Source of the DNA: Brachynemurus nebulosus
Lineage: Eukaryota > Arthropoda > Insecta > Neuroptera > Myrmeleontidae
Reading direction: 5' to 3'
NCBI GenBank assembly: GCA_035578155.1
Contig: JAPWDM010000001.1
Span: 88,360,076-88,424,075, forward strand
Length of the DNA: 64,000 nt
Of the stretch, positions 14,921-63,922 are shown piece after piece. The notes below the pieces were generated by a model. That model did no database searches, was not told the DNA's origin, and was given only the letters and a program-made list of their open reading frames with translations. How positions within the stretch are numbered: position 1 is the stretch's first letter; each line of letters opens with the position of its first letter. A program made the translations under genes and the position numbers.

Positions 14921-15924
14921 TTTTTTAACTTACTGTGCCTACTTGTATTAATATTAAAATAAAACATTTTAAACAGATATAACAATAACACTGAATTCCG
15001 ATGTAAATATGGGACAAGTGAGGGGCAAGGTAATATGGAATTCCTAAAAGGCACTAACTGGATACCAACTCAATACATGTACAAAATTGCAGCCCTCTAA
15101 GTTTACTCAGAGAGTCTCTAGACGTGTTAGAAAAAAAGCAAAAAAATTAAGGAAATATTGGTGCAAAAATCGTGGGGGTAAGGGTTAAAAGTTGAAACCT
15201 CCAAAAAGCAGTGGCTGGCTATTAACTTAACCTATGCACAAAATTTCAACCCTCTAGGTTTATTTCGGGAGATTTTGACCCGAACGAAACTGTTAAAAAA
15301 CAAGAAAAATCATGTTCTTTTTGGTATAAAAATGGTGGGGGGAAGGGTTAAAAGCTGAGACCTCCAAAAGGTACCCCCATGATACTAACTCAATCCGAAT
15401 GCAAAATTTCAGCCCTCTAGGTTTATTTGGGTCACTTATGCGAGTGGTACAAACTTCGAAAACGTCAAAAAAGCATGAAATTGTAGCTTAAAAATGAGGG
15501 GGGTGGGGGTAAAATATTAAAACTTCCAAAAAGCACAACCTAGGTACGAATTTTATCAACACACCAAATTTCAACCCTCTACGTTAATTCTGGGGGGCTG
15601 GGGGCGTGTTAGATCCAGCCAAAATCGTTTTTCCCCCCTCTACTCCCTCCAAATCACCCTAGGAAGCTGAATTTTGGATATGTTGTAGATAATTGATCGA
15701 AGCATTATTTCAAACCGGTTTGGAAAAATTTTATTGTTTTGTTGCCTCCCATCACCCCCTTAAAGGTTGGGTCGGATCCAAAATTTGCCCAAAATTTGAC
15801 CCCACTTAGATAGTATTGTTGTGCATCGGAATGAGCTCCGCTTACCAAATTTCTGCTCTTAACTTCCATAGAGGGGGGGCCTACACATATTAAAAGGTAG
15901 CGGGAATATATATATATATATATA

Positions 15925-19228: not shown

Positions 19229-19584
19229 AGGTGTTATTTTTTTTTTCTTAAAAAGGGTTTAATTGAACCCTTGGAGTGACCCGGAATGTCTTACAAGGTT
19301 GATACAAGTGATAATTCCCAATTTTGAATTTATAATATTAACGTAATCATCCTATCCTCCTAAAGCAACAGCTTCAACGACAACTTCAAGTCGATATGCT
19401 GAGGATTTAAATTTTGCTTATGTCGATTCTGTTTTTAAAATAATTCAATCTTTTTTTTAATATTATCTAGAGTTTTCGGAATTGATACAAGCCCCTTAAT
19501 GGAATATTTTCTTTAAATTTATGGAATACTTTCGTTTCAATATTGATTGTAAAGTATAATTACAACAAGTAAAAACGGTTTAAA

Positions 19585-21270
19585 TAGTTATTTCTAAAGG
19601 TATTATAGATAAAATATAGACTACACATGTCAGATTTTACATCGAGATTTAAGCTTTTAATTGTAGCGTTACGGCTTTTAAAAAAACATAGTTGAACTAG
19701 TATTGTTAATGCAGTTTGCATATTTGATATTAATATTTTGATTGGTCAAACCAAATTCACCCTATTTCAAATTTTATACCCAATTTTATTGTCAAGACCC
19801 CTCCAATAGGTCCGAAACTGGATTTTAGTACGTCGGTAGAAAGACCTTTAAAAATAAAAGCTTGTGTCAAATTAAACTTTTTTTTTCTGATACAATTTCG
19901 TTTCAAATACAATTGAGCATGAGTCATTGTTAAAAAATTAAAAAATTCTTATATTTGAAACAAGTCAATCTTCTATTCTTTTCTAAAAACAAACTGCAAA
20001 TTTAAAATTTACGCATTTGCAACAATGAAAGATATAAAGCTAAATTTAAGTGAAATTATAGCTATAATAGTTTTCGAGTAATTTTATAAAATTTAATTTC
20101 TACGCCTATTTTGAGACCCGATTTTACTCCTTAAATGACTTTTGTGGCAGATAAAAAAATATAGGGGAAGGTAGGGCAATGTGGCCACCCTAAGATTTAA
20201 ATTGATATAATATTTTCCAAACGGTTTTAATAAATTAACATTTCTTGACATAATGCAATTACAAATTTAATATAGTCTTTATTTTAGAACATACATACGG
20301 TTTACATATTCAAAGTAACAAAAAATTTTCAATTATTTCATAAGTGACAAAGTGACCACATTACCCACCTTGGGTAGGTAAAGTGGTATAGTATTATTAA
20401 TATTAAAAATTAACATAAATAAAATTCACTTTTTAAATGACTTTTTAATTTTTAGATGAAATTATAATTTTTAATCAAAAAAATGACAATTTGCTACTAA
20501 TTAGTAATCATTAAAACAGTTTTTAATTATCCAAAGTACTCAGATTGTAGCTATTCATTTTTAAGACAAAACTCACAAGTAAAATCATCATCTTCCTCAT
20601 TCCAACCATAGCAAACTTCATGGGCTCATCTTTTGCATATCGTACATCGTACCCAGTCATCTTCTGTTTTTGATTCCGATTAAACATAATTCTGGTATCA
20701 CTACTAAATTTACTAGGCCACTTTACCTTTGCACGTAGTGGGCCACATTACCCAAAACTAAGTACAATGGAAAAATTGAAATAATTCCCGCCCCAACGGA
20801 TGATTCATAATTTTTTATTATAAAATTAATTACTTCAGAACTACAATAGACACAGGGGATATTCACAAAAACCAAGTATTTATAAAACAATATTTTTATA
20901 CAATATTTGTAAGTACTTACCTTGGATCAAAGGGCACAAGAAACACTTTTTTTAAAATAAAATTTTCTAAGTAACATCTAAAGAGTTGATATTCACCATG
21001 ACACTGTATAAATTGTCAATCTACTATTTAAACCAAATAACAAGAAACGGAAACCCTTGGTTCATTTGCAAACTAGTGGTGACCACTTTACCTGCCTGGG
21101 CCACTATGGCGAACCTTCCCCTACTTATCTATTATTTTTGTTTGTTCTATATATCTACCAAGTTTGATCAAAATCGGGAATCATCACTTCAAGACCTTCG
21201 TCATTGAGGAATTTTGTCGCGTATCTCCGAAGCCCCTGGTTCTATTTTGATCAAATTTATGTGGGGCCAC
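19585..21270 (+). repeat. Dispersed repeat also present inside the Polinton palindrome, interrupted
   Basis: About 700 bases (19585-20163 and 21122-21270) are colinear with 46261-46773 and its mirror. Shared blocks include GATATTAATATTTTGATTGG and CAAAATCGGGAA; both copies end near GGGGCCACTT. The two halves are separated by the MITE at 20164-21121. No coding. Confidence 0.8.
20164..21121. mobile_element. Pogo-type MITE
   Basis: Termini GGGGAAGGTAGGGCAATGTG and, complemented, GGGGAAGGTTCGCCATAGTG, bordered by TA (20162-20163 and 21122-21123). It interrupts the dispersed repeat cleanly, which confirms the boundaries. No transposase is seen. The ends resemble those of the element at 24946-26678. 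Confidence 0.8.
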
Positions 21271-24945: not shown

Positions 24946-26678
24946 GGGGAGAGACGGGTAAGATGACGAGTCGGGTAAGATGGCGAAATGCTTGGTTTTT
25001 GAATAGTGAACAACATTAGAAGTTTCATTCTTACAGTGTCATCTAATAATAGTATGTAATACTAAAATTTCTGTATCTTATGCTCAGCTGATAATTTCGT
25101 TGAACTTTATATGCAATTGTATGTGAACAAATTCATTTGACAACGGTGTTATAATATTTTTAAAAAGGAATTTAGTGAAATAGTGTATATTATCAGGTAT
25201 TTAATTAGTTTTAATAGAATTTTTTTATTAATTATCATTTATATTAATGACCCCAATTAGAATTTTAATTATTACAATTTGATGTTTTGTTATAATCTTA
25301 AGACAACTAATTTTGATGACGGAGGTAAGATGACGATCATAATTGGCGGGTATCATGACGATTCGCAACTTACCCCAGCCAAATGACAATTTAATTTCCT
25401 AACTTCTAAATTCATTTTTTGCGCAATATAGAATGGCGGGGAAGTATGTGCGGAAAAGTAAACGTCGCCTATTGTCGGATGAAGCACTTAAAGCTGCAAT
25501 TCGAGCTGTTGAAGAAGGAGATGCAGTGTGCAATGCCGCAGCGAAACCTTAACATTCCGGAACCTACACTAAGGCGTTGTTTAAAAAAACATTTTCAAAA
25601 TATTCAGTTGGCAGTACATGCTGGTAGATTTCTGGAAAACGCTTACACCCGAACAAACTAAGGATTTTGTAAATTACATTACAGAATGTAATGCTAGGGG
25701 TCTTGGGCTTACAGCTATACAAGTTCGGAAATTGGCTCTCCAATCTGCTGAGACAAATGGCATAGAGCACAGGTTCAATAAAGAGAAAAAGATTGCTGGG
25801 AAAGACTGGTTTGCATCTTTTAATGAAGAAAATAACCTTAGTCTTAGAACTCCTGAAGCAACTTCAATTGCGAGATTGCGAGGCTTTAACAAAGTAGCAA
25901 CATCTGTAGATTTAGTACAAAATAGAGATATTTCTTCCAGTGATTCTTACAGTGACCAACCTTTAATAAATATTGCAGGTAGGATTCAGTCAGCTACTTC
26001 TGCTCAAACTCACGGTGAGATATAAATAACCCCTGACACTCAAGACCAACCTAGCTGTTCTGGTGTAAGCGTTTTTAGCATTCGGCCACTGCCTTCGTGT
26101 CGTTCTAAAACAACTCGTAGGAAGATGTCATCCTGTATAATTTCTAACACTCCAGTTAAAGAAACTTTAGAAAAACGACAAAAGGAAATTGCTGAAAAAG
26201 AAAATCTAAAAAAATAAAAATGTAAAAAAGAAAATTAGGAGTAAAATCAGCAAAATCCAAGAGTATTGCAAGTAATAAAACCTATTATTGCCCGGGTTGT
26301 CTAGAATTGTATGAAGATCCTCCTATCGAAAATTGGATACAGTGTGCATCTTGTTCCAATGAAAAATTTTCATGGTGGCATGAAAATTGTACGAATTATG
26401 GGGGAGTCGAAGATTTTAAATGCAATTTATGTTTATAGTCATCTTACCCCACTAAATATGTCATCTTACCCGCTATAGTGGGTAAGATGATGAAAATGCA
26501 ATTCATCAAATTTCTTATGTTATTTACGAACTGGTTTGTTTTTCGGTTTTAAAAGTTTTCCTAATTGAAAGAGAATATATTAATTTATTTAAATTTATAA
26601 TTTCGTTGTTTTTAATAAACAAGTGTTATGATAAAATTGAGTTTTTCCTTAGTATCGCCATCTTACCCCACTTTCCCC
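24946..26678 (+). mobile_element. Pogo-type element with internal deletion of the DDE domain
   Basis: Termini GGGGAGAGACGGGTAAGATG and, complemented, GGGGAAAGTGGGGTAAGATG, bordered by TA (24944-24945, 26679-26680). GTAAGATGACGA-type motifs are repeated internally near both ends. The interior codes for the DNA-binding N-terminus and zinc-finger C-terminus of the transposase only. Confidence 0.85.
25433..26438 (+). pseudogene. Pogo transposase derivative: HTH, CENP-B-like domain and PHD-like zinc finger, no DDE
   Basis: From ATG 25433 a basic start leads into a Psq-type HTH (SDEALKAAIRAVEEGDAV, then, after a frame slip near 25545, LNIPEPTLRRCLKKHF). After another slip near 25635 comes the CENP-B-type second DNA-binding domain (TLTPEQTKDFVNYI ... 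FNKEKKIAGKDWFASF ... LRTPEATSIARLRGFNK, to about 25905). In autonomous relatives the DDE_1 nuclease follows; here the frame passes into a Ser-rich linker and stops at 26022. The downstream tail resumes in pieces (about 26090-26215) and closes with a Cys4-His-Cys3 finger at about 26290-26435 (CPGC, CASC, WHENC, CNLC). Frameshifts make an intact product unlikely without editing or splicing. Confidence 0.75.
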
Positions 26679-41749: not shown

Positions 41750-41755
41750 ACCTTT
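41750..41755. repeat. Target-site duplication, left (ACCTTT)
   Basis: Identical to 51927-51932. Six bases is the duplication length known for Polinton/Maverick integration. Confidence 0.85.
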
Positions 41756-42487
41756 AGTAGTAAGGATTGGCCGGTTCTAGATCCACCATCCCACCATCCG
41801 ACTTTTTGAGCGACCTCGGCAGGAGGTAGGTAACCTATGTGGGTTCTAGAAGCCTGCGGCGGTGGGTGGAGCAAAATTTTTTTCTAGCCTAGCGGAACTT
41901 GATCCAGCCTAAGAGAACCTAAGGAAATTTGGTGTAACCTAACAAAATTTTTCTAACCTAAGAATTTCCCTAATAGATGGCGCAGCCACCTTCGAGCCCT
42001 GTGAATTCGCTACTAGATGGCGCGGCCACCTTCGAGCCTGTAAATTCGCTACTAGATGGCGTTGCTAGTCTGGATTCCTGTGTGTAAGTTTGAAAAATTG
42101 TCAATAGATGGCATCGAAAACCTTTTTTTTTTGATAGTTAAACTAGCCATTAAAAGATGGCCTTGCTTTCATAATTTTATAATATTTTTATCTGAAAACA
42201 GGCTTAAACTGACAGCTGACGTCACTAAAGGTAAACTGATATCAAACAGCGAAGATTTCTCTCTAATATGCGAAAATGAATTTTATCATATGATTGTATA
42301 TTTTTATCTGAAAACAGGTTTATACAGGTTTTCCTCTAAATAAAAACACATTTTATTTTTTAATTTTTAATTTTTATTTTTTTATTAAATAAAAACACAT
42401 TTTTTTTATTTTTAATTTTTTTTTAATTTTTTCTTATTTTAATAAGTTTATTTTAAAAGAAATATTTTTTTTTTACAATAAAAATGT

Positions 42488-43000
42488 TTAAATGTTATTA
42501 CAATAATATTTGTATATGGATATGACATTTTCCATGGCGCAAGTTGCTCCGGAATGATGACCGCATCGAGGACTAGTGTATGTTGATGTTATGATTCTCA
42601 ACTTGGGACAAATTGTTATTTCTTCAAAGTTCATAATGGGCGCTGATGGTAGCAGTCGTTTCAAATAGCGTACTTTCTCTTCTCCCTTCGTATAGATGAT
42701 TCGAGTTCCGTGCAGATTGTTTATTAAAATGTACTGTAGTTCCTCGTATTCAATATGTCCGTCCATCCAGGAGAACCCATGATGATTTTTCCGCAACCAG
42801 CGAGCTGTGCGTTGATCTTTTTCACTTAATCCGCAAAACGGTATTGGTGATTTGAATACATAGTGCTGTAGTATATAATCTTCACCACAATTTTCTTCGG
42901 AAGAATCGAATTTCAACACAGCCAATTCCTTTATGTAGAATTTCCCATTTGTCGAATTTGGAAATCCTTGGAAGTCAACAATTGCTGCGTCGGTCTTCAT
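42488..43000 (-). CDS. 170-residue accessory protein, left-arm copy
   Basis: Identical at protein level to 50682-51194; see that entry for what can be seen in it. It is the outermost gene of the left arm, 52 bases downstream of the capsid-like gene and pointing toward the left terminus. Confidence 0.75.
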   Translation of the reverse strand: MKTDAAIVDFQGFPNSTNGKFYIKELAVLKFDSSEENCGEDYILQHYVFKSPIPFCGLSEKDQRTARWLRKNHHGFSWMDGHIEYEELQYILINNLHGTRIIYTKGEEKVRYLKRLLPSAPIMNFEEITICPKLRIITSTYTSPRCGHHSGATCAMENVISIYKYYCNNI

Positions 43001-43052
43001 TGTGCGTTGTCTAGAGCGAAACTGACTGATTTATAGCTGGATTGCGATGTTT

Positions 43053-44258
43053 TTATACATATTTTGTAACAATATTTGTCAATGGATTATATTGAACCAC
43101 ACGATCATGTAGTAGAAGGCAAAATGCTGATGTATTCTCTGGCACCTCCTTCAACGTTTTAAATTCAATTCGAATATCCACTGGTCCACTTTTCAAAGTT
43201 TCGTTTTGATGAGAACAGTCGATGAATATAATTGGCGCGATATTCTTGAATTGCGTTTTGCTTAAAAGCGGTTCATTCTTCTTACAATCATAATATGCTT
43301 GTTGAAATTTCGAATACATGTGATATGCTACTGCATATCTATCATTACTGAAATCCAAATTCAAATCCATGTACGGGTATTTCGCAGAATTTAAATAAAC
43401 TTTGACGTCTGAAAGTTCACAGTGATCGAAAATACTGGAATCTTTATCTTTTTTATTTCGTCGATTCGTTTGTAGAGCGAATATAATGTAGCGTGGTTTC
43501 TCCAACTGAGTCGATGTTTTTACCGTCCAAATGTTTTGTCTCGCTGTTGGAATCGTTGGCTGTATATGCATATCCCATGATCGAAAAGCAATTGTAATAT
43601 CTCGACTATTTTCCACATACTTCAACAACTTCAGTTTCTGTTCATCTGCAACCGTAACGTGTGGAACCATCCATTGAATTTTATGTATATGGAAAGTGAC
43701 ATCATCCGTTGGTGATATGACTGCATCGTGATCCGTCCGAGCTCGAGTCAGAATTAGTTGATGTTTTGCATTGATGATAACTTTCTTGTAATGGTTAAGA
43801 AATCCAAACATCCGCGCCAATGGTAGACAGAAATTGAAGTAGCCTTTTTCCGTCACTTTAATTGTTTCACCTGGACACCATCCGGCGTTGTAGAGTAGTT
43901 TGCTTTCATTTTCGTTTAATGCCAAATAATTGATTAACGTTGTTGTCGGTCCCACGTACTTGCATTGATCGATTTCCACGTCGTTCAGTTCATATCGTAT
44001 TTCTTCAAACAGGTACGCCAATGAATTATTGGATAATTCCGCTGTAGTCGATACTGTTTTATCGCTCTTCAACAATTGTCCTTCCACATACAGACAACTT
44101 TCGTGCGGCAGCAGGATCAGATCTTGGTTTTGACAGCAGATTCGTATTTCGTCGCTGTTTCCAAACGCATTTAGAAATGGCGAATAGCAGTGATACTCGA
44201 TGTTTGAAATGCTCTCATCGAAATCGATTCCAGTATTGATGCTTAAAATGCTGCTCAT
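43053..44258 (-). CDS. Major-capsid-like protein (F54H12.2 family), left-arm copy
   Basis: 401 residues, identical to 49424-50629. Start and upstream stop overlap as ATGA, as in the mirror copy. Domain reasoning is given under the right-arm gene. Confidence 0.75.
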   Translation of the reverse strand: MSSILSINTGIDFDESISNIEYHCYSPFLNAFGNSDEIRICCQNQDLILLPHESCLYVEGQLLKSDKTVSTTAELSNNSLAYLFEEIRYELNDVEIDQCKYVGPTTTLINYLALNENESKLLYNAGWCPGETIKVTEKGYFNFCLPLARMFGFLNHYKKVIINAKHQLILTRARTDHDAVISPTDDVTFHIHKIQWMVPHVTVADEQKLKLLKYVENSRDITIAFRSWDMHIQPTIPTARQNIWTVKTSTQLEKPRYIIFALQTNRRNKKDKDSSIFDHCELSDVKVYLNSAKYPYMDLNLDFSNDRYAVAYHMYSKFQQAYYDCKKNEPLLSKTQFKNIAPIIFIDCSHQNETLKSGPVDIRIEFKTLKEVPENTSAFCLLLHDRVVQYNPLTNIVTKYV

Positions 44259-44416
44259 TTTCTCCTCTTCAGCTTGAAACCCAATTGTCGAAGAAATTGT
44301 TTGTTCTCTCTTGTTAATGGCGGTCGTTGTTGCTTCTTCCTCGCCGATCCGTTCACCTTGGTGGCAAGTTGTAGACTGATCGGTCGCACCACATTTTCGT
44401 CTTTAAATACCAACAT
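44255..44416 (-). CDS. 53-residue basic protein, left-arm copy
   Basis: Mirror of 49266-49427. It lies between the penton-like and capsid-like genes and overlaps the latter by four bases. Confidence 0.65.
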   Translation of the reverse strand: MLVFKDENVVRPISLQLATKVNGSARKKQQRPPLTRENKQFLRQLGFKLKRRK

Positions 44417-44418
44417 TT

Positions 44419-45117
44419 TCACGCCGGCTTCAAATGCAACTTTACTGTTATCGTTTCGCCTCGAAAATTCACTAAATTGCCGTCTTGATCCTCAATTCGT
44501 AAAACTAGAGATGTTATCCGTCTCACGGTCACCGGCATATAAATAACTGTATTCGGTGATTCGCTTATTTTATACCCAGGTTCCACTTGAATCGAAAACG
44601 AATAAATATTATGTGCTGGAACGTTGTTCAGGTAGCTGTTCGTTGTAATGTTTGTTTCAACTTGTATCAGATTCACTTTCATGATATTCGTTGGTTTATC
44701 CGAATAGTGGTAATGACCAGCTGCAAGTTTTCGCTTACTGAAGCCAAGTAGCGAGCCAATTGTTCGTTCTTGATCGAAATGAATTGTTTCCGTACATTTT
44801 ATTTCACTTTTTAGCGTATTGTTATTCGCACGAAGTATAAGTTGCGGGCTATCACCCGGTTTTCTCTTCTCTAGTATCCGATCTTCTATTTGAAACTCCA
44901 AATCTTCCAAATCATAATTGCCAACAGGTATCTCGATGCATTTCACTTCTCCATCACCGTAATGGAATAAATTATTTGTTTCGTCGATATTTGGCACTGC
45001 ATTGTATGTTTCAAAATTGACCAACCCGCATACATAATCACCCGGCAAATCGATGGGTGGAAAATACTCAGCCGTCAATATAGATGAATCACCACTTAAC
45101 GTTAATGTTAACGACAT
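44419..45117 (-). CDS. Penton-like protein, left-arm copy
   Basis: 232 residues, identical to 48565-49263. A TATA-like TTTAAATATA lies at 45158-45167, about 40 bases before the ATG, mirroring the right arm. Confidence 0.7.
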   Translation of the reverse strand: MSLTLTLSGDSSILTAEYFPPIDLPGDYVCGLVNFETYNAVPNIDETNNLFHYGDGEVKCIEIPVGNYDLEDLEFQIEDRILEKRKPGDSPQLILRANNNTLKSEIKCTETIHFDQERTIGSLLGFSKRKLAAGHYHYSDKPTNIMKVNLIQVETNITTNSYLNNVPAHNIYSFSIQVEPGYKISESPNTVIYMPVTVRRITSLVLRIEDQDGNLVNFRGETITVKLHLKPA

Positions 45118-45191
45118 GGTGACTAAGATACGAATGACAGAAACTTCTTGCCACGGGTATATTTAAAGTATAGATGAGAAGTGCAACAAAA

Positions 45192-45563
45192 TTATTGAAA
45201 ATAATTTGTATTCCATAAAAATTCTAGACATAAATGTCCGCAGTTATACTGTTCATAATTTTGGTATCTGTTATAATTATATTTAATATTATTGCCATGT
45301 AAATATTGCACAACTTCTGCGGGTGGTGGCAAATTTCCAAAACTATCAAAGTATTCGACGTTCTTGTTATCTTTGGCGTACGCTACCCAATGGCTTCCTG
45401 GTCCTGATGAATTATCCAAATTGACGACTCCACACTCCTTTCGCCTTGGCCGTTTCGGTAAATCATCTCTCATGAACACGCCACGAAAATTGGATAAATA
45501 TTTGTTTCCAAACTGATAAATGTCGCGATCAGTTAATGGTCGATCGGGTAGCTCGCTTAGCGG
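45192..45563 (-). CDS. Adenain-type cysteine protease, left-arm copy
   Basis: Mirror of 48119-48490 with all catalytic residues retained. The upper coordinate is the slip-site base where the protease frame could be entered; the first in-frame ATG is at 45473. Confidence 0.75.
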   Translation of the reverse strand, partial: PLSELPDRPLTDRDIYQFGNKYLSNFRGVFMRDDLPKRPRRKECGVVNLDNSSGPGSHWVAYAKDNKNVEYFDSFGNLPPPAEVVQYLHGNNIKYNYNRYQNYEQYNCGHLCLEFLWNTNYFQ

Positions 45564-45871
45564 TTTTTTGATTCGATGTAAAGTCCCAAACCTCTTCTGT
45601 ATGGTTTCAAATAAAGTCCAGTTCCAGATTTGGATCCAAGAGCAATTGCTTCCATCATCCTGTTATGACGTTCATTTTCATCCAATTGTTTCTTTGCTGT
45701 TTTATAAGCATTCACTGCTTTCGCAACACCGGCAGCACCTCCGGCAAGTGATCCTACAGCAGACAGGCCAGCAAAAAGTGGAACCAGGAATGGTAAAATT
45801 CCACCAGTTTTTGGAATTGGAATGATTCTCGGTGTTGAAAACTGACTGTTCTTACACCAAATTACACCAAA
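45557..45871 (-). CDS. Minor-capsid (pX-like) protein, left-arm copy, 5' incomplete
   Basis: Mirror of 47811-48125. It lacks an in-frame ATG upstream of the conserved start of the domain, exactly as in the right arm. The slip heptamer is at 45563-45569. Confidence 0.7.
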   Translation of the reverse strand, partial: FGVIWCKNSQFSTPRIIPIPKTGGILPFLVPLFAGLSAVGSLAGGAAGVAKAVNAYKTAKKQLDENERHNRMMEAIALGSKSGTGLYLKPYRRGLGLYIESKNR

Positions 45872-45924
45872 TTACACGAAAAATACACCAAATGACACCA
45901 AAATTACATAAAAAAGACACCAAA

Positions 45925-46258
45925 GAGTCACTCCCAAAATGAGTCACTCCAAAAAAGAGTCACTCCAAAAAAGAGTCACTCCAAAAAAGAGTCACTCCCA
46001 AAAAGAGTAACTCCCAAAATGAGTCACTCCCAAAATGAGTCACTCCCAAAATGAGTCACTCCCAAAAAGAGTCACTCCCAAAAAGAGTCACTCCCAAAAT
46101 GAGTCACTCCCAAAATGAGTCACTCCCAAAAAGAGTCACTCCCAAAATGAGTCACTCCCAAAATGAGTCACTCCCAAAATGAGTTACTCCCAAAAGGAGT
46201 CACTCCCAAAATGAGTCACTCCCAAAATGAGTCACTCCCAAAAGAATCACTCCCAAAG
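45925..46258. repeat. 16-bp minisatellite, left arm
   Basis: About 21 tandem units of AAAATGAGTCACTCCC with few variants. Most units contain TGAGTCA, the AP-1/TRE consensus. Sixteen is not a multiple of three, so it is not a coding repeat. It is preceded by ACACCAAATT-type short repeats. Confidence 0.95.
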
Positions 46259-46774
46259 AGAAATAGTTATTTCTAACGGTATTACAGATAAAATATAGAA
46301 TGAATATGTAAGATTTTAGATTAAGATTTAAGCTTTTAGTTTTAACGGTACGGCGTTTAGTAAAAACAGGTAACCTAATATTGATTTTGATGCAGTTTCA
46401 TATTTGATATTAATATTTTGATTGGTCAAACCATTTTCGCCCTATTTCAAATTTCACCCCCAATTTTATCGTCAAGGCCCCTCTAATAGGTCCGACCCTG
46501 GATTTGAGTATGCCAATAGAAAGGTCTTTAAAAATAAAGGATTATACCAATTTAAATTTTTCTTCTAGTTGTTATAGTTTTCGAATAATTTGATAAAATT
46601 AAATTTTCACCCCAACTTCGAAGGTCCATTTCACCCCTTAAATGGTTTTTATAGCAGATAAAAAAAATATGTGTATGGTATTTTTGTTTGTTCTACACAC
46701 TAGTTAAGTCTCATCAAAATCGGGAATTATCACTTAAGGACCTAGCCCTCTAAGTAGGTATGGGGCCACTTGGC
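46259..46774 (+). repeat. Captured chromosomal repeat, left arm
   Basis: Colinear with 19585-21270 after removal of the MITE there. It forms the innermost part of the arm and ends at the spacer. Confidence 0.8.
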
Positions 46775-46907
46775 CATCTGGTAGTGAAACTTGGAATTAG
46801 GGAAAATTTGGCTTCTTAGCTTAAGCTAAGTTCGCTTAGGTGTCTTTAGGTTATACCTAATTTCGTTGGGTTGGGTTGCCCCTTTATATAGGCAATTACA
46901 CAGCGTT
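46775..46907. other. Unique spacer at the palindrome axis
   Basis: 133 bases that are not inverted copies of each other, apart from a small perfect palindrome TTAGCTTAAGCTAA near 46816-46829. It contains TAGGTTATACCTAA and GGTTGGGTTG motifs. No coding. It would be the loop if the element were extruded as a cruciform or existed as a snap-back single strand. Confidence 0.85.
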
Positions 46908-47423
46908 GCCAAGTGGCCCCATACCTACTTAGAGGGCTAGGTCCTTAAGTGATAATTCCCGATTTTGATGAGACTTAACTAGTGTGTAGAACAAACAAAA
47001 ATACCATACACATATTTTTTTTATCTGCTATAAAAACCATTTAAGGGGTGAAATGGACCTTCGAAGTTGGGGTGAAAATTTAATTTTATCAAATTATTCG
47101 AAAACTATAACAACTAGAAGAAAAATTTAAATTGGTATAATCCTTTATTTTTAAAGACCTTTCTATTGGCATACTCAAATCCAGGGTCGGACCTATTAGA
47201 GGGGCCTTGACGATAAAATTGGGGGTGAAATTTGAAATAGGGCGAAAATGGTTTGACCAATCAAAATATTAATATCAAATATGAAACTGCATCAAAATCA
47301 ATATTAGGTTACCTGTTTTTACTAAACGCCGTACCGTTAAAACTAAAAGCTTAAATCTTAATCTAAAATCTTACATATTCATTCTATATTTTATCTGTAA
47401 TACCGTTAGAAATAACTATTTCT
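46908..47423 (-). repeat. Captured chromosomal repeat, right arm
   Basis: Mirror of 46259-46774. Confidence 0.8.
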
Positions 47424-47757
47424 CTTTGGGAGTGATTCTTTTGGGAGTGACTCATTTTGGGAGTGACTCATTTTGGGAGTGACTCCTTTTGGGAGTAACT
47501 CATTTTGGGAGTGACTCATTTTGGGAGTGACTCATTTTGGGAGTGACTCTTTTTGGGAGTGACTCATTTTGGGAGTGACTCATTTTGGGAGTGACTCTTT
47601 TTGGGAGTGACTCTTTTTGGGAGTGACTCATTTTGGGAGTGACTCATTTTGGGAGTGACTCATTTTGGGAGTTACTCTTTTTGGGAGTGACTCTTTTTTG
47701 GAGTGACTCTTTTTTGGAGTGACTCTTTTTTGGAGTGACTCATTTTGGGAGTGACTC
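47424..47757. repeat. 16-bp minisatellite, right arm
   Basis: Mirror of 45925-46258, reading GGGAGTGACTCATTTT. Unit order and variants match the left array wherever I compared them. Confidence 0.95.
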
Positions 47758-47810
47758 TTTGGTGTCTTTTTTATGTAATTTTGGTGTCATTTGGTGTATT
47801 TTTCGTGTAA

Positions 47811-48125
47811 TTTGGTGTAATTTGGTGTAAGAACAGTCAGTTTTCAACACCGAGAATCATTCCAATTCCAAAAACTGGTGGAATTTTACCATTCCTGGTT
47901 CCACTTTTTGCTGGCCTGTCTGCTGTAGGATCACTTGCCGGAGGTGCTGCCGGTGTTGCGAAAGCAGTGAATGCTTATAAAACAGCAAAGAAACAATTGG
48001 ATGAAAATGAACGTCATAACAGGATGATGGAAGCAATTGCTCTTGGATCCAAATCTGGAACTGGACTTTATTTGAAACCATACAGAAGAGGTTTGGGACT
48101 TTACATCGAATCAAAAAACCGCTAA
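47811..48125 (+). CDS. Minor-capsid (pX-like) protein, 5' incomplete
   Basis: The frame is open from 47811 to the TAA at 48123 (104 codons) but has no ATG before the conserved region; upstream it runs into short repeats and the minisatellite. The protein begins at a conserved block (IPIPKTGGILPFLVPLFAGL), then a Gly/Ala-rich hydrophobic segment (LAGGAAGVAKAVN), a basic helix (YKTAKKQLDENERHNRMMEA) and a closing motif GLYLKPYRRGLGLYI. Hydrophobic-then-basic architecture with a KPY...GLGLY tail is that of the small capsid/core proteins encoded beside the protease in Polintons and adintoviruses, comparable to adenovirus pVI/pX. A slippery heptamer (48113-48119) lies 4 bases before the stop, in the right phase to enter the protease frame. 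Confidence 0.7.
   Translation, partial: FGVIWCKNSQFSTPRIIPIPKTGGILPFLVPLFAGLSAVGSLAGGAAGVAKAVNAYKTAKKQLDENERHNRMMEAIALGSKSGTGLYLKPYRRGLGLYIESKNR
48113..48119 (+). promoter_or_regulatory. Canonical -1 ribosomal frameshift heptamer AAAAAAC
   Basis: In the minor-capsid frame the bases read as A AAA AAC (tca aaa aac cgc taa), the X-XXY-YYZ form of -1 slip sites. A -1 slip enters exactly the protease frame (ccg at 48119) and avoids the stop at 48123. A short possible stem (CGATC/GATCG) lies about 20 bases downstream; no strong pseudoknot was found by eye. The mirror copy is at 45563-45569. Confidence 0.55.
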
Positions 48126-48490
48126 GCGAGCTACCCGATCGACCATTAACTGATCGCGACATTTATCAGTTTGGAAACAAATATTTATCCAATTTTCGTG
48201 GCGTGTTCATGAGAGATGATTTACCGAAACGGCCAAGGCGAAAGGAGTGTGGAGTCGTCAATTTGGATAATTCATCAGGACCAGGAAGCCATTGGGTAGC
48301 GTACGCCAAAGATAACAAGAACGTCGAATACTTTGATAGTTTTGGAAATTTGCCACCACCCGCAGAAGTTGTGCAATATTTACATGGCAATAATATTAAA
48401 TATAATTATAACAGATACCAAAATTATGAACAGTATAACTGCGGACATTTATGTCTAGAATTTTTATGGAATACAAATTATTTTCAATAA
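48119..48490 (+). CDS. Adenovirus-type (C5, adenain-like) cysteine protease
   Basis: The protein cleaves capsid precursors during virion maturation in adenoviruses and Polintons. The catalytic set is visible: His in GPGSHWVAY (codon at 48290), Asp in YFDSFG (45 bases on), Cys in NCGHLC (codon at 48440), and a Gln seven residues before that Cys, the same spacing as the oxyanion Gln and Cys of adenain. The first ATG is at 48209; the 30 codons upstream, back to the slip site, also look conserved (PLTDRDIYQFGNKYLSNFRG). The natural start is therefore probably by frameshifting from the minor-capsid frame rather than at that ATG. It is short (about 124 residues from the slip site) against about 200 for adenain. 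It lies 75 bases before the penton-like gene. Confidence 0.75.
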   Translation, partial: PLSELPDRPLTDRDIYQFGNKYLSNFRGVFMRDDLPKRPRRKECGVVNLDNSSGPGSHWVAYAKDNKNVEYFDSFGNLPPPAEVVQYLHGNNIKYNYNRYQNYEQYNCGHLCLEFLWNTNYFQ

Positions 48491-48514
48491 TTTTGTTGCA
48501 CTTCTCATCTATAC

Positions 48515-48550
48515 TTTAAATATACCCGTGGCAAGAAGTTTCTGTCATTC
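48515..48550 (+). promoter_or_regulatory. Putative core promoter of the penton-like gene
   Basis: TTTAAATATA (48515-48524) precedes a TCATTC initiator-like motif (48545-48550) by about 30 bases, the metazoan TATA-to-start distance, 15 bases before the ATG at 48565. The mirror lies at 45132-45167. Confidence 0.4.
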
Positions 48551-48564
48551 GTATCTTAGTCACC

Positions 48565-49263
48565 ATGTCGTTAACATTAACGTTAAGTGGTGATTCATCT
48601 ATATTGACGGCTGAGTATTTTCCACCCATCGATTTGCCGGGTGATTATGTATGCGGGTTGGTCAATTTTGAAACATACAATGCAGTGCCAAATATCGACG
48701 AAACAAATAATTTATTCCATTACGGTGATGGAGAAGTGAAATGCATCGAGATACCTGTTGGCAATTATGATTTGGAAGATTTGGAGTTTCAAATAGAAGA
48801 TCGGATACTAGAGAAGAGAAAACCGGGTGATAGCCCGCAACTTATACTTCGTGCGAATAACAATACGCTAAAAAGTGAAATAAAATGTACGGAAACAATT
48901 CATTTCGATCAAGAACGAACAATTGGCTCGCTACTTGGCTTCAGTAAGCGAAAACTTGCAGCTGGTCATTACCACTATTCGGATAAACCAACGAATATCA
49001 TGAAAGTGAATCTGATACAAGTTGAAACAAACATTACAACGAACAGCTACCTGAACAACGTTCCAGCACATAATATTTATTCGTTTTCGATTCAAGTGGA
49101 ACCTGGGTATAAAATAAGCGAATCACCGAATACAGTTATTTATATGCCGGTGACCGTGAGACGGATAACATCTCTAGTTTTACGAATTGAGGATCAAGAC
49201 GGCAATTTAGTGAATTTTCGAGGCGAAACGATAACAGTAAAGTTGCATTTGAAGCCGGCGTGA
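48565..49263 (+). CDS. Penton-like (single-jelly-roll) protein
   Basis: 232 residues, all-beta in appearance (alternating hydrophobic stretches, few long helices). It starts LTLTLSGDSSILTAEYFPPI and contains VCGLVNFETYNAVPNID (about residues 30-46), a lysine/serine-rich middle (LKSEIKCTETIHF), TIGSLLGFSKRKL (about 118-130) and a C-terminal strand set RITSLVLRIEDQDGNLVNFR. It matches my recollection of a family always found between the protease and the F54H12.2-like protein in insect Polinton-type elements; assignment as penton base rests on that position and its size. The Kozak context (CACCATGTC) is good. Stop and next ATG are separated by only two bases. Confidence 0.6.
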   Translation: MSLTLTLSGDSSILTAEYFPPIDLPGDYVCGLVNFETYNAVPNIDETNNLFHYGDGEVKCIEIPVGNYDLEDLEFQIEDRILEKRKPGDSPQLILRANNNTLKSEIKCTETIHFDQERTIGSLLGFSKRKLAAGHYHYSDKPTNIMKVNLIQVETNITTNSYLNNVPAHNIYSFSIQVEPGYKISESPNTVIYMPVTVRRITSLVLRIEDQDGNLVNFRGETITVKLHLKPA

Positions 49264-49265
49264 AA

Positions 49266-49427
49266 ATGTTGGTATTTAAAGACGAAAATGTGGTGCGACC
49301 GATCAGTCTACAACTTGCCACCAAGGTGAACGGATCGGCGAGGAAGAAGCAACAACGACCGCCATTAACAAGAGAGAACAAACAATTTCTTCGACAATTG
49401 GGTTTCAAGCTGAAGAGGAGAAAATGA
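49266..49427 (+). CDS. 53-residue basic protein between penton-like and capsid-like genes
   Basis: MLVFKDENVVRPI start, then a Lys/Arg/Gln-rich centre (SARKKQQRPP) and an FLRQLGFKLKRRK end. It is strongly basic with no hydrophobic segment, so a nucleic-acid-binding or capsid-cement role is possible but not shown. Its stop overlaps the next start as ATGA (49424-49427), a compact viral-style arrangement that suggests translation of a shared message. Confidence 0.65.
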   Translation: MLVFKDENVVRPISLQLATKVNGSARKKQQRPPLTRENKQFLRQLGFKLKRRK

Positions 49428-50629
49428 GCAGCATTTTAAGCATCAATACTGGAATCGATTTCGATGAGAGCATTTCAAACATCGAGTATCACTGCTATTC
49501 GCCATTTCTAAATGCGTTTGGAAACAGCGACGAAATACGAATCTGCTGTCAAAACCAAGATCTGATCCTGCTGCCGCACGAAAGTTGTCTGTATGTGGAA
49601 GGACAATTGTTGAAGAGCGATAAAACAGTATCGACTACAGCGGAATTATCCAATAATTCATTGGCGTACCTGTTTGAAGAAATACGATATGAACTGAACG
49701 ACGTGGAAATCGATCAATGCAAGTACGTGGGACCGACAACAACGTTAATCAATTATTTGGCATTAAACGAAAATGAAAGCAAACTACTCTACAACGCCGG
49801 ATGGTGTCCAGGTGAAACAATTAAAGTGACGGAAAAAGGCTACTTCAATTTCTGTCTACCATTGGCGCGGATGTTTGGATTTCTTAACCATTACAAGAAA
49901 GTTATCATCAATGCAAAACATCAACTAATTCTGACTCGAGCTCGGACGGATCACGATGCAGTCATATCACCAACGGATGATGTCACTTTCCATATACATA
50001 AAATTCAATGGATGGTTCCACACGTTACGGTTGCAGATGAACAGAAACTGAAGTTGTTGAAGTATGTGGAAAATAGTCGAGATATTACAATTGCTTTTCG
50101 ATCATGGGATATGCATATACAGCCAACGATTCCAACAGCGAGACAAAACATTTGGACGGTAAAAACATCGACTCAGTTGGAGAAACCACGCTACATTATA
50201 TTCGCTCTACAAACGAATCGACGAAATAAAAAAGATAAAGATTCCAGTATTTTCGATCACTGTGAACTTTCAGACGTCAAAGTTTATTTAAATTCTGCGA
50301 AATACCCGTACATGGATTTGAATTTGGATTTCAGTAATGATAGATATGCAGTAGCATATCACATGTATTCGAAATTTCAACAAGCATATTATGATTGTAA
50401 GAAGAATGAACCGCTTTTAAGCAAAACGCAATTCAAGAATATCGCGCCAATTATATTCATCGACTGTTCTCATCAAAACGAAACTTTGAAAAGTGGACCA
50501 GTGGATATTCGAATTGAATTTAAAACGTTGAAGGAGGTGCCAGAGAATACATCAGCATTTTGCCTTCTACTACATGATCGTGTGGTTCAATATAATCCAT
50601 TGACAAATATTGTTACAAAATATGTATAA
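49424..50629 (+). CDS. Major-capsid-like protein, F54H12.2 family
   Basis: 401 residues with an intact frame. The N-terminal region (SINTGIDFDESISNIEYHCY, then a SDEIRI...QNQDL...LP block to about residue 60) and later DDVTFHIHKIQWMVPHV (about 186-202) are hallmarks of the uncharacterised C. elegans F54H12.2-like family, which sits next to the integrase F54H12.3 in nematode Mavericks and beside protease genes in insect elements. It is beta-rich with scattered aromatic residues, consistent with a jelly-roll capsid protein, but shorter than typical double-jelly-roll Polinton capsids (about 500-650), so the capsid role is probable rather than proven. It is followed after 52 bases by the accessory gene, with a TATA-like box between. 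Confidence 0.65.
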   Translation: MSSILSINTGIDFDESISNIEYHCYSPFLNAFGNSDEIRICCQNQDLILLPHESCLYVEGQLLKSDKTVSTTAELSNNSLAYLFEEIRYELNDVEIDQCKYVGPTTTLINYLALNENESKLLYNAGWCPGETIKVTEKGYFNFCLPLARMFGFLNHYKKVIINAKHQLILTRARTDHDAVISPTDDVTFHIHKIQWMVPHVTVADEQKLKLLKYVENSRDITIAFRSWDMHIQPTIPTARQNIWTVKTSTQLEKPRYIIFALQTNRRNKKDKDSSIFDHCELSDVKVYLNSAKYPYMDLNLDFSNDRYAVAYHMYSKFQQAYYDCKKNEPLLSKTQFKNIAPIIFIDCSHQNETLKSGPVDIRIEFKTLKEVPENTSAFCLLLHDRVVQYNPLTNIVTKYV

Positions 50630-50646
50630 AAACATCGCAATCCAGC

Positions 50647-50653
50647 TATAAAT
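50647..50653 (+). promoter_or_regulatory. TATA-like box before the accessory gene
   Basis: TATAAAT lies 29 bases before the ATG at 50682, in a 52-base gap after the capsid-like gene. A TCAGTCAG initiator-like motif directly follows but is too close to be its own start site. Mirror at 43029-43035. Confidence 0.35.
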
Positions 50654-50681
50654 CAGTCAGTTTCGCTCTAGACAACGCACA

Positions 50682-51194
50682 ATGAAGACCGACGCAGCAA
50701 TTGTTGACTTCCAAGGATTTCCAAATTCGACAAATGGGAAATTCTACATAAAGGAATTGGCTGTGTTGAAATTCGATTCTTCCGAAGAAAATTGTGGTGA
50801 AGATTATATACTACAGCACTATGTATTCAAATCACCAATACCGTTTTGCGGATTAAGTGAAAAAGATCAACGCACAGCTCGCTGGTTGCGGAAAAATCAT
50901 CATGGGTTCTCCTGGATGGACGGACATATTGAATACGAGGAACTACAGTACATTTTAATAAACAATCTGCACGGAACTCGAATCATCTATACGAAGGGAG
51001 AAGAGAAAGTACGCTATTTGAAACGACTGCTACCATCAGCGCCCATTATGAACTTTGAAGAAATAACAATTTGTCCCAAGTTGAGAATCATAACATCAAC
51101 ATACACTAGTCCTCGATGCGGTCATCATTCCGGAGCAACTTGCGCCATGGAAAATGTCATATCCATATACAAATATTATTGTAATAACATTTAA
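50682..51194 (+). CDS. 170-residue accessory protein of Polinton-type elements
   Basis: An intact frame beginning MKTDAAIVDFQGFPN. The opening strand-like VDFQGF followed by FYIKELAVLKF is reminiscent of RNase-H-fold exonuclease beginnings (DxE replaced by DFQ). The rest has an aromatic WLRKNHHGFSW segment, GTRIIYTKGEEKVRYL, and a Cys/His-rich tail (CGHH...CAMENV). Similar small proteins recur in insect genomes with these elements; their function is not known. With the usual acidic pair not evident, an active nuclease is doubtful. An AATAAA signal lies about 35 bases after the stop (near 51230). It is the outermost gene of the arm. Confidence 0.6.
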   Translation: MKTDAAIVDFQGFPNSTNGKFYIKELAVLKFDSSEENCGEDYILQHYVFKSPIPFCGLSEKDQRTARWLRKNHHGFSWMDGHIEYEELQYILINNLHGTRIIYTKGEEKVRYLKRLLPSAPIMNFEEITICPKLRIITSTYTSPRCGHHSGATCAMENVISIYKYYCNNI

Positions 51195-51926
51195 ACATTT
51201 TTATTGTAAAAAAAAAATATTTCTTTTAAAATAAACTTATTAAAATAAGAAAAAATTAAAAAAAAATTAAAAATAAAAAAAATGTGTTTTTATTTAATAA
51301 AAAAATAAAAATTAAAAATTAAAAAATAAAATGTGTTTTTATTTAGAGGAAAACCTGTATAAACCTGTTTTCAGATAAAAATATACAATCATATGATAAA
51401 ATTCATTTTCGCATATTAGAGAGAAATCTTCGCTGTTTGATATCAGTTTACCTTTAGTGACGTCAGCTGTCAGTTTAAGCCTGTTTTCAGATAAAAATAT
51501 TATAAAATTATGAAAGCAAGGCCATCTTTTAATGGCTAGTTTAACTATAAAAAAAAAAAGGTTTTCGATGCCATCTATTGGCAATTTTTCAAACTTACAC
51601 ACAGGAATCCAGACTAGCAACGCCATCTAGTAGCGAATTTACAGGCTCGAAGGTGGCCGCGCCATCTAGTAGCGAATTCACAGGGCTCGAAGGTGGCTGC
51701 GCCATCTATTAGGGAAATTCTTAGGTTAGAAAAATTTTGTTAGGTTACACCAAATTTCCTTAGGTTCTCTTAGGCTGGATCAAGTTCCGCTAGGCTAGAA
51801 AAAAATTTTGCTCCACCCACCGCCGCAGGCTTCTAGAACCCACATAGGTTACCTACCTCCTGCCGAGGTCGCTCAAAAAGTCGGATGGTGGGATGGTGGA
51901 TCTAGAACCGGCCAATCCTTACTACT

Positions 51927-51932
51927 ACCTTT
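51927..51932. repeat. Target-site duplication, right (ACCTTT)
   Basis: Exact match to 41750-41755. Confidence 0.85.
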
Positions 51933-56626: not shown

Positions 56627-57744
<1,118 letters not shown>

Positions 57745-59344
57745 CGAAGACTAATTTTTTAAAATTTAAAAAAAATGAACGTACTTTTATAACAAATGAA
57801 ATACATACATATTAAGTAATTTAAAAATGTTATTAAAGTCACTGTTTATTTATAAATTAGGAATTTTGGATTTTTTTATTATTTATAAAATAGAAATGTT
57901 GGATTTTTTTGGAGAGAAAAAATATCTTCATAAAGGCCTTCCAGTTTACTATTTAAGTTCCTTTTTTAATATTTAAAAATAAAACACAAAGGCAATTGGC
58001 GGATAAGCATGGGTAGGAATGCCCTTCTACGAATTGTGTTGGCTTTTTCCCTGCTAACTGCTATCGGCACAAAATTGAAATTTACTGAGATTCAGCCCTT
58101 AAAAACTTAAAACCTTTTTTTAAAGCCCCGATCAACCGGACACTCATCATCAGTTTTGAAACCACCAAAATGACAAATCGCTTGTGGACTTTCAATTACA
58201 TTTCGCTTGTAGACATTCAATACCGAAGATGAAAGGAAAAATTCGACTTCTGTGATGGGGCTCCGCTGCTCACGGCGTTTTCTTACTACAGCTTACTACA
58301 GGCAAGCCATCTCCGTAGTTACAAAGGTAAACAAATCTTTAATTACCATAGTAAATATCACAATTACACAAAAATTTTGTAATTTTCATATATTTTACCA
58401 GTGACGTCCAACTAGGTAAAAAGTATAATTTAAAAATGGAAAGCAGATTTTTTATTTAAAGTAAGTAAATACTCGCCAATCCACCTTCATCAAGACGAGG
58501 TTAGTTATTTTCGATTTCCGAAAGCACACGTTTGTAAAAATTTTTCTTTTACACGTACGCATATCATATAAACCCATTTAGTTTGCAATTTTTTAATAAT
58601 TAGATTCTACGCCACTGAGTTATATATGCATTTAAAAATTGGGACCAAAAAACTAGCGAAACTGGCTAACCTGTATAGTATAATATACTAATCAATCAAA
58701 TGATCTTGAGACCAGAGGTAAAAATAACCGTGAAAATATTGCAATAACAATCGACGAAAGTACAACGAAAGTCGATTTACTAGATCAAATCATATAAAAT
58801 TTTTATTTCCGCCCGACCTGTAACTACCGCTGCCCTACCTTAAATTCAGCTCTAACTACAGCCCTTTTAAGTGCCAGGTTTTTTTAAAATCTAATTTATA
58901 TACGTACACATCTGGAATTATTATTTATGATATCTGACTGGCTTCACAGACATTAAAATTTTGACTTATAAGCAGTGCCGGTACATTAAGTATTAAGTCG
59001 ACTTAACTCAGAAATGAGATTTATACTAATTATTTTATTTAGCCATACTCACGTTTTTCCTCACATAGAAAAAACTTTACAATAGAGAAACATAACATCT
59101 TACTATGAAAATCAGAGGCTCTGTCAAACTTTAAAACTCGCTTTCTGTAAACATTTAATTACACTTAAATTACTTTGGCTTGTATCTACAGAAATATGAT
59201 GTATTAACTAAATTTAGAAAATATTTAATATTACATAAGACATAAAAATAAATAATAAACAACAGAAAAAGTAAATAATATTATTGTTAAATCTAACATA
59301 GGTATGCAATATATTCTTCAAACATAAAACGGTATTTTCATTTA
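57745..59344. other. Unassigned sequence
   Basis: AT-rich, no supported gene. A CTGCCCTACCTTAAA motif near 58830 recalls ATGCCCTACCTTAAA near 52690, suggesting a shared degraded element. Confidence 0.4.
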
Positions 59345-62649: not shown

Positions 62650-63922
62650 AGGCGAGTGCGGGCCTCAAAATTCAGACGCGAACCCAGCTCTACAATCATC
62701 GTGTAGGAGCAACAGCAGCGAGGATATATCCAATAAACCTGCTGGATCATCGAATGTAGCCCTACCGTCAACCAGTGGTATGGTTACGAAACCAACGGGG
62801 GTTAATCTTCCTCCAAGAAAAACAAAAAGGCCCAAGATCGTCAGTTGAATTTATAAAGTTTTTTATTTTAAAACCGACTGAAGTGGATTTTAGTAAAATA
62901 AGCCCCTTCCTTCTAGCCAAGTTACTAAAGGACCATATTGGGCAGGTTGGAGATGCAAAACTATCGGGCAAAAGGTTGCTTGCGGAGGCATTCTCGGCGG
63001 CACAGTCAGAGAGGATCCAAAGTTTAAAGACTTTAGGACAGTACGCAATAGATGTGGTGCCCCATGCAGTATTAAATTACTCTCGGGGTGTCATCATGCA
63101 CCCATCATTAGCATACTGTACTCCTGATGAGATAGTGTTGGAGATGTCTTCACAGGGGGTCATAGAGGCAAGGAGACTGAAATATAATAAGGGGAATAAA
63201 TCCGAATTCCCTAGTTATATTGTTAACACTCAACACGACCACCTTGCCAAGAGAGGTGGTCGTACGTCTCTTTACCAAAATCGACGTGCGTCCGTACATT
63301 CCAGCACCCATGCGGTGCTTTAACTGCCAAAAATACGGACACGTATCACAAAAATGTAATGTCGATCAACAGATCTGCGTGTGTGGTAGGCCGTTGCATG
63401 AAGGACGGCCATGCGGCGAGCCCGTTAAATGTATAAACTGCGGGGGTAATCACTCGGCCAAGTCGAGGAATTGCCCCATCTTTAAGCGAGAGTCTGCTAT
63501 TCAAAAGCTGAGGGCCCGGGAGAGATTAACATATCCAGAGGCCAGACGTAAGCTCCCAGGCAATACGCCCCATCTCTCAGCTCTTGGCGGATACTGTTGC
63601 AACCCCCACTCCTGCAGCGGCTGAGACAACTAGCGAAATAAAAGAATTAAAAGAAACGATACGATAAATGCGAGCAACAATGCAATCTATGCAACAAAAC
63701 CTATTGCGCTCAGTGGGTGTAACAGTACTAATACCCACACCAGCCGCTGTCGCGCCAGCTAAGATCCCTGAGACAAAGAGGGTAATACCTCAGGGACCAA
63801 TCGTAAAGAATGTGGTATCTTTCCCTGGGAAAAAATCTTCACCTAATAAGACAACGCCCGGGAGACGACGTAGTAGTGAGGGGGAAAAAGAATTGACCAA
63901 ATCAAGGTTCCCCCAAAAGTGA
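62650..63922 (+). pseudogene. Non-LTR retrotransposon ORF1 (Gag-like, CCHC zinc knuckles), frameshifted
   Basis: The reading starts in a Ser/Pro/Asn-rich segment (about 62652-62847) and slips near 62848. It continues as the conserved RNA-binding part (VEFIKFFILKPTEVDF ... SPFLLAKLLKDHIG, to about 63230) and slips again near 63235 to reach the zinc knuckles: CFNCQKYGHVSQKC (63313-63354), then CVCGRPLHEGRPC and CINCGGNHSAKSRNC (to about 63475). A third slip near 63570 and a stop at 63664 precede a Pro/Lys-rich tail ending at 63922. Such ORF1 proteins coat the retrotransposon RNA; the layout matches Jockey-superfamily elements. ORF2, if present, lies beyond the window. Confidence 0.75.

Follow-up and report, generated by a model that had tools for sequence, protein, structure and literature searches.

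The deletion forms of the yeast plasmid pGKL1 are palindromic dimers of a protein-primed linear plasmid in which one end is kept twice, and symmetric adenovirus recombinants are a further type of snap-back genome. The snap-back genomes of adeno-associated virus (AAV) are defective genomes with an inverted duplication, according to the accessible text of PMC8235507, and vertebrate Mavericks (Polintons) combine a 6-bp target-site duplication with (AGT)2//(ACT)2 ends, according to that of PMC8097293. Here we describe a mirror-image element of 10.2 kb with Polinton features from the antlion Brachynemurus nebulosus. It occupies positions 41756 to 51926 of a 64,000-nucleotide stretch of contig JAPWDM010000001.1 (referred to as the window; C1:88360076-88424075) in a 960-Mb assembly of 138 contigs. 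We consider it probable that this copy, W, is one member of a family of nonautonomous, fully palindromic Polinton satellites that would be made by fold-back and copied and inserted by a helper.

A palindrome with Polinton-type ends and its relatives

An inverted-repeat search of the window recovered two arms (41755-46774 and 46908-51927) lying 133 nt apart around an axis at 46841, and alignment of the arms found 2 substitutions (42101 versus 51581 and 42133 versus 51549) and no gaps. Both agree with the mirrored 5,019-base arms described in an earlier reading of this DNA, made from its letters alone (the sequence-only reading). A 5-kb inverted repeat at 99.96% identity cannot be a product of chance, and the palindrome is real. 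W starts with AGTAGTAAGG and finishes with CCTTACTACT, which is the AGTAGT...ACTACT type, and is bounded on both sides by ACCTTT; the AG...CT ends and flanking hexamers reported earlier are thus Polinton-type ends with a 6-bp target-site duplication. No polymerase, rve integrase, or packaging ATPase was found in W, either in the lists of open reading frames (ORFs) for 41756-51926 or in a three-frame translation of one arm, which bears out the reported absence of replication genes. We therefore class W as a nonautonomous derivative and not as a Polinton proper.

The sequence-only reading treated W as a single element; the palindromic, Polinton-ended unit stands, but it is a family. Comparison of a 1-kb arm piece with the genome, in which the best 40 of 2,501 candidates were scored, gave at least 41 matches at 92 to 100% identity, most of them at 96 to 98% and several as inverted pairs. 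We read 20 stretches for the best arm matches and 26 later; by way of pieces exceeding 4 kb or both arms of a pair, the arm-match stretches cover 18 of the 41 places listed. A 28-base pattern spanning the joint between the pX-like fragment and the ACACC repeats matched 60 times in the 960-Mb genome (reversed control, 0), and 52 of these joints form 26 convergent pairs 0.69 to 4.5 kb apart (median, 1.98 kb), with no divergent neighbors and 8 joints unpaired. We read both arms of five pairs (W, L009, L013, L017, and L021) and one flank of six (L031, L034, L035, L039, L040, and L041), for which core matches lie in either orientation. Another convergent pair lies on the same contig, about 177 kb from W (C1:88228525-88230429).

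Other copies with the axis of W and target-site duplications of their own had been proposed as a check, and L009, L015, and L017 are such palindromes, sharing both axis and center with W; L015 does so without the 28-base joint. L013 keeps the larger part of the inner arm, and L021 keeps its first ~85 bp together with the arrays; both lack the middle and look like central deletions of the W-type form. A 6-bp target-site duplication flanks all 11 palindromes for which both ends were fetched: ACCTTT in W, GTCGGT in L011, CTATTC in L013, TATATA in L015, ATTTAC in L017, ACTATG in L019, TCGGCT in L021, AATATC in L046, TGAATT in L048, AAGGAG in L009 (with two extra ACT units before the right copy), and CACACA in L049 (inside a CA repeat), the view of the right arm being limited to its end and the core in L046, L048, and L049. 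L011 and L019 differ in kind: they share only arm positions 1-1450, have inverted arms at 99.7 to 99.8% identity, and contain an interruption on one side or centrally. L016 (duplication ACCGTA) has 1.6-kb inverted ends around an unmatched middle.

Palindromic reads occur in long-read data, and an assembly artifact built from them would also produce mirrored arms. We regard this as extremely improbable: the copies lie at many loci on contigs of up to 196 Mb, with different flanks, target-site duplications, and real arm mismatches, and the symmetry stops exactly at the Polinton ends. On the assembly sequence alone, target-site duplications, differing flanks, and repeated occurrence lead us to reject the artifact.

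Full-length Polintons are present in the same genome. Seven stretches (L022-L028) share arm positions 1-4098 and then run into a whole PLA2-pX ORF, followed by ATPase and integrase genes in the four examined (L022, L023, L024, and L026); the integrase is in two pieces in L026, as is a 296-amino-acid (aa) ORF in L023, L024, and L026. One copy, followed to its other end through the adjacent stretches L022 and L029, measures 17,984 bp with the duplication AACTGT, and is the kind of parental Polinton with a shared terminal inverted repeat (TIR) for which the sequence-only reading had advised a search. It encodes an A32-type ATPase (PF04665; E = 2.9e-7), an rve integrase (PF00665; E = 1.5e-12), and a 1,365-aa ORF with zinc fingers and with what we take to be B-family polymerase motifs, and is a plausible helper for the palindromes. 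Its TIRs of ~0.6 kb are identical over the first 118 bp and then differ by 31 substitutions and 75 gap columns; at that length, they rule out the long arms being a plain Polinton TIR. Each arm of W instead has 4.1 kb from the left end of a full-length Polinton, comprising the TIR, the genes for the 170-aa, capsid, 53-aa, and 232-aa proteins, the protease, and the 3' end of PLA2-pX; at a fixed point, this gives way to one half of a palindromic core of ~2 kb. The description of the whole element as a TIR therefore holds for the mirroring of the arms, but these leave the Polinton at position 4098 and enter the core.

Gene content of the arms

All arm genes of W read outward, with the same set in either arm (Table 1). 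The 401-aa protein matches PF21738 (DJR-like domain; E = 7.5e-121) and has 1,647 homologues at E ≤ 0.001 among 3,176 candidates; the few named capsid homologues among the 120 listed come from insects such as Hermetia, Chrysoperla, Eupeodes, Venturia, and Athalia. Its AlphaFold model (30-row alignment; predicted local distance difference test [pLDDT], 87.5) resembles, by fold comparison, the capsid proteins of PBCV-1, Sputnik, and mavirus and also those of adomaviruses and virophages. Sequence match and predicted fold together identify it as a double jelly-roll capsid protein. Two scans of viral contigs with the capsid protein and a scan of a plasmid collection returned no relative, and the PHROGs and NCBIfam profiles gave nothing useful.

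The 232-aa ORF has no Pfam family above its cutoff and sits one gene from the capsid gene, a common arrangement for the penton gene in Polintons in the accessible text of PMC4028283; we label it a putative penton by this position. A penton fold was also tried, and the single-sequence model (pLDDT, 30.8) was discarded. The protease-like ORF matches PF02902 (Peptidase_C48) at E = 0.0017 and 18.6 bits, below the cutoff of 20.7, and has 90 homologues at E ≤ 0.001, 4 of the 90 listed carrying the adenovirus protease domain PF00770. It has no ATG in W where the three relatives read start with M. In L022, the protease ORF (4466-4900, minus strand) overlaps the PLA2-pX ORF (4831-5661, minus strand) in another frame and has no ATG of its own, an arrangement that suggests frameshifting, splicing, or a non-ATG start.

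The sixth gene of W, for which the label pX-like is our presumption, corresponds to residues 180 to 277 of a 277-aa protein found whole in L022-L028 and has no ATG; the missing portion holds a phospholipase A2-like domain (PF08398; E = 1.3e-14; residues 35 to 94 in L022). The full-length Polinton L022 has a parvovirus-type phospholipase A2 domain fused to a pX-like protein. The sequence-only reading saw two complete virion modules in W. The same genes are indeed mirrored, but the modules are not complete, because the sixth gene is cut at its 5' end and lacks an ATG and the protease lacks a start ATG; the ATPase is absent as well.

Table 1. Positions of features in and around W (window coordinates)
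Feature	Position	Strand	Mirror copy	Remarks
Target-site duplication, left copy	41750..41755			ACCTTT
Left arm	41756..46774	+		5019 bp
Left-arm part matching full-length Polinton TIR	41756..42325			Arm 1-570 vs L029 8955-8410, 89%
170-aa ORF	42488..43000	-	50682-51194 (+)	Open; no family assigned
Predicted major capsid protein, double jelly-roll	43053..44258	-	49424-50629 (+)	401 aa; PF21738
53-aa ORF	44255..44416	-	49266-49427 (+)	
232-aa ORF	44419..45117	-	48565-49263 (+)	Putative penton (minor capsid), by position only
Adenovirus-type cysteine protease-like ORF	45192..45662	-	48020-48490 (+)	No upstream ATG
PLA2-pX-like C-terminal piece	45557..45852	-	47830-48125 (+)	98 residues; 5'-truncated
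ACACCAAA-type repeats and 16-bp tandem array	45853..46257		47425-47829	GAGTCACTCCCAAAAT, 20.9 copies
Inner half of palindromic core	46261..46774		46908-47421	Dispersed in genome
Nonpalindromic center	46775..46907			133 bp
Right arm	46908..51926	-		99.96% reverse complement of left arm
Target-site duplication, right copy	51927..51932			ACCTTT

Origin and maintenance of the palindromes

We propose that, during replication of a linear genome, the core was the site of a fold-back or template switch, with the result that one end was copied twice. Because the palindrome keeps two good ends, it could then be replicated in trans, from both ends and protein primed, by the polymerase of a full-length Polinton and be inserted in trans by the integrase of such an element. 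In each cycle, the displaced single strand would fold at the core into a hairpin in which one arm templates the other, which would keep the arms alike and render new recombinants symmetrical. Packaging of the palindromes into virions is possible. The near-perfect inverted duplication of one end around a short loop (5,019-bp arms, 133-bp loop) is the hallmark of a snap-back genome, and the earlier proposal of such a genome integrated by a helper integrase is largely supported, with the source of the inner core as its weak point (see below).

In five of six copies, the two arms are nearly equal: substitutions number 2 of 5,019 in W (no gap columns), 0 of 4,514 in L009 (1 gap column), 1 of 4,521 in L017 (none), 1 of 4,788 in L015 (18), and 2 of 4,650 in L013 (100, some of them due to pieces cut unequally). 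The copies themselves differ, by 0.86 to 1.76% in the capsid region among six palindromes (L011, L012, L016, L019, and L020 lack this region and are omitted), and by 1.8 to 8.2% in the core (five copies, L021 having no row). In a capsid tree, the two arms are sisters in all six copies. The outermost ~22 bases also vary among copies, and both ends agree in 7 of 10 (W, L011, L013, L015, L017, L019, and L022); the ends of L009 agree apart from the extra ACT units, those of L016 but for one base, and those of L021 disagree. The L009/L010 ends carry (AGT)4 at one side and (AGT)2 at the other, and unequal AGT repeats of this kind fit slide-back in protein-primed initiation. With arms alike within a copy and copies differing, both arms must be renewed together, either by fold-back replication or by gene conversion.

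Host gene conversion between the arms of inserted palindromes, as in sex chromosome palindromes, is the main rival for this equality, and adjacent 5-kb inverted arms are good substrates for it. The far-apart TIRs of L022/L029, which are patchy, are in keeping with this. Against it, arm divergence is close to nil in five of the six copies, however far a copy stands from the others (L021 is the exception), and the variable outermost bases agree at both ends even in the nonpalindromic L022/L029, which could gain nothing from the pairing of adjacent arms. The recombinant L015, moreover, has a capsid arm joined at position 3538 to a different inner segment (described below), and this new joint is identical in both arms; conversion could achieve this but would demand a long tract, while fold-back replication would yield it directly. 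We think gene conversion rather unlikely as the explanation.

The core bears on how often palindromes form. The capsid module meets the repeats at 45852/45853, and a query of 46261-46980 (inner half, center, and 73 bp of the mirror half) gave at least 99 matches, with the best 40 of 4,408 candidates scored, many of them in both orientations around one axis. Stretches of 61 to 112 bp of the W center recur at 89 to 92% identity as the center of L009, L015, and L017, and the center resembles the subterminal Polinton TIR, with E values down to 1.5e-16 (L015 center against seven TIR pieces), which suggests a former element end at the palindrome axis. Each palindrome might have formed anew, from a single-armed Polinton end carrying an inverted-repeat core that folds back, so that the same axis recurs. 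In favor of this, the core (46261-47421) forms an inverted repeat of its own, and capsid, polymerase-fragment, and zinc-finger arms all occur beside it; the capsid tree mixes palindromes with full-length copies, and 8 of the 60 joints are unpaired. Yet core distances of 1.8 to 8.2% point to a diverse core lineage, and no single-armed progenitor turned up among the stretches read, a sample outside which the 8 unpaired joints lie. We hold repeated formation to be possible but doubtful.

Several results weigh against the fold-back, helper-copied satellite that we favor. For the inner arm (46261-46774), neither L022 nor L029, the two stretches of the full-length Polinton, gave a match, which speaks against its derivation from this Polinton; a simple fold-back of this Polinton alone is insufficient, and the core had to be acquired. 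Of the fold sequence, only the 133-bp center is TIR-like. The 1,365-aa ORF of L022/L029 has no polymerase match in Pfam. The arms of L021 differ at 38 of 3,993 positions with 82 gap columns and have unlike outer ends, though within the capsid region they differ by only 0.24%. Finally, palindromes and full-length copies are intermingled in the capsid tree (three label changes; 4 of 12 inner branches well supported), and exchange must therefore be at work and not descent alone. The palindrome lineage has so diversified with its members keeping their arms equal, and it either trades capsid sequence with full-length copies or was drawn from them repeatedly.

An old copy of the inner core lies in the window at 19582-21197; it is 77 to 83% similar, lacks the arrays and Polinton arms, and is split by an apparent ~0.95-kb TIR element (GGGGAAGGT...ACCTTCCCC, about 20166-21122). 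It is possibly a hint at the origin of the core. A free-standing core without Polinton arms is unsupported for near copies, as all 16 flanks read were Polinton related or L011-like; given the arrayless old copy, we leave it open for distant ones.

The core joins more than one type of arm. At 16 core places, one flank was read: six carry capsid arms joined at the same base (L031, L034, L035, L039, L040, and L041), six an N-terminal part of a polymerase gene that is cut, broken, and directed inward (L032, L036, L037, L038, L044, and L045), one a 390-aa zinc-finger ORF (L033), and three a third type related to L011 (L030, L042, and L043). The inner segment of L015 is of this third type, 93% like L042 and L043. 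Two polymerase-type ends begin AGTAGT (L046) and AGTAGA (L049), and the 136-aa gene from the right end of the full-length Polinton is present in L048, of the zinc-finger type, and in L047, of which a single end was read. On this evidence, we regard the palindromes as a modular class of Polinton satellites.

The 390-aa C2H2 zinc-finger ORF (C390) ends in a pX-like tail (GLGLYLRPYRR) and was located at 4367-5536 in L011 and 4418-4999 in L048, with the same amino acids in L011, L016, and L019. It is unmatched in the full-length copies L022, L023, L024, and L026, and homology to the 296-aa ORF of the helper (blastp E = 0.023 over 15 residues) was not accepted.

In W, L009, L013, L017, and L021, each arm keeps the five uncut ORFs of the capsid module open; in L015, a stop interrupts the capsid gene and the protease is truncated, in one arm as in the other. 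The ratio of nonsynonymous to synonymous polymorphism (pN/pS) is 0.09 among palindromes and 0.08 among full-length copies, computed on pooled gap-free full-length ORFs of four genes with stops skipped and the L015 protease and L026 232-aa ORF left out. Changes private to single palindromes comprise 18 synonymous and 15 nonsynonymous ones, against a neutral expectation of 79% nonsynonymous that takes no account of transition bias (binomial P = 2.4e-5). The corresponding counts are 8:8 in full-length copies, with the near-identical L023, L025, L027, and L028 represented by one, and 0 synonymous to 5 nonsynonymous in L015 alone. This constraint fits protein use and repeated exchange with full-length copies alike.

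Open capsid genes and several gene modules with common ends and core could also mark a multipartite system, in which capsid palindromes, zinc-finger palindromes, and full-length helpers are separately packaged segments. Capsid ORFs open in five of six palindromes (all but L015), the 18:15 private changes, and the low pN/pS would suit it. We nevertheless judge it very unlikely: the polymerase modules are cut, broken fragments, the full-length copy carries everything, private changes in full-length copies resemble those of the palindromes, exchange could supply the constraint, and L015 has only nonsynonymous private changes together with its stop. A related proposal, which we think unlikely but worth stating, is an undescribed modular class in which the common core acts as a fold-back center exchanging end modules, with capsid segments under purifying selection packaged beside a helper in the manner of a multipartite virus. 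The modules exchanged on the core would be the capsid module, the polymerase fragment, and the zinc-finger gene, each becoming symmetrical at the next replication.

Elsewhere in the window are a 989-bp inverted pair at 86% identity (14937-15924 and 56788-57745; an unclassified repeat), two overlapping ORFs at 62760-63624, the second with CCHC zinc knuckles and the two probably a gag-like retroelement part, and an ORF at 25585-26025 weakly matching the Tc5 transposase DNA-binding domain (E = 0.019, below cutoff).

Comparison with described systems

Among the papers listed by our literature searches, we found no palindromic Polintons, and nothing relevant on defective interfering Polintons, as judged by titles and the openings of abstracts, a coverage outside which most subscription journals and Repbase lie. 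Within that scope, we met no earlier account of Polinton derivatives that carry capsid genes, are palindromic throughout, share a core, and form a family in the germline; the ends, the duplications, and snap-back genomes are known. To our knowledge, protein-primed replication has not yet been watched directly for Polintons, and a family with jointly renewed arms would be a natural record of Polinton genome replication. The family suggests that fold-back satellites also arise from virus-like transposons and are spread by them in the germline, and with helper and satellite in one genome, Polinton particles and Polinton parasites become testable questions.

Long inverted arms with tandem repeats inside recall the Drosophila Foldback (FB) transposons. 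These make 9-bp duplications and have no capsid genes, whereas the palindromes have Polinton ends and 6-bp duplications, the latter at 11 of 11 copies with both ends fetched. The palindromic dimers of pGKL1 are alike in keeping one end of a protein-primed linear DNA twice; plasmids of that type are cytoplasmic and carry neither integrase nor capsid genes. With Polintons and Mavericks, W shares the 6-bp duplication and AGT...ACT ends (as given in the accessible text of PMC8097293) as well as a double jelly-roll capsid protein and an adenovirus-like protease (compare the accessible text of PMC4028283). It differs from them in being nearly all one inverted repeat, with the capsid genes present twice and a foreign palindromic core in the middle, and in lacking polymerase, integrase, and ATPase. 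With snap-back genomes, it shares the head-to-head duplication of one end, with a short unique loop between the copies, and the expected need for a full-length relative, but here the palindromes form a chromosomal multicopy family with target-site duplications and differing arm modules.

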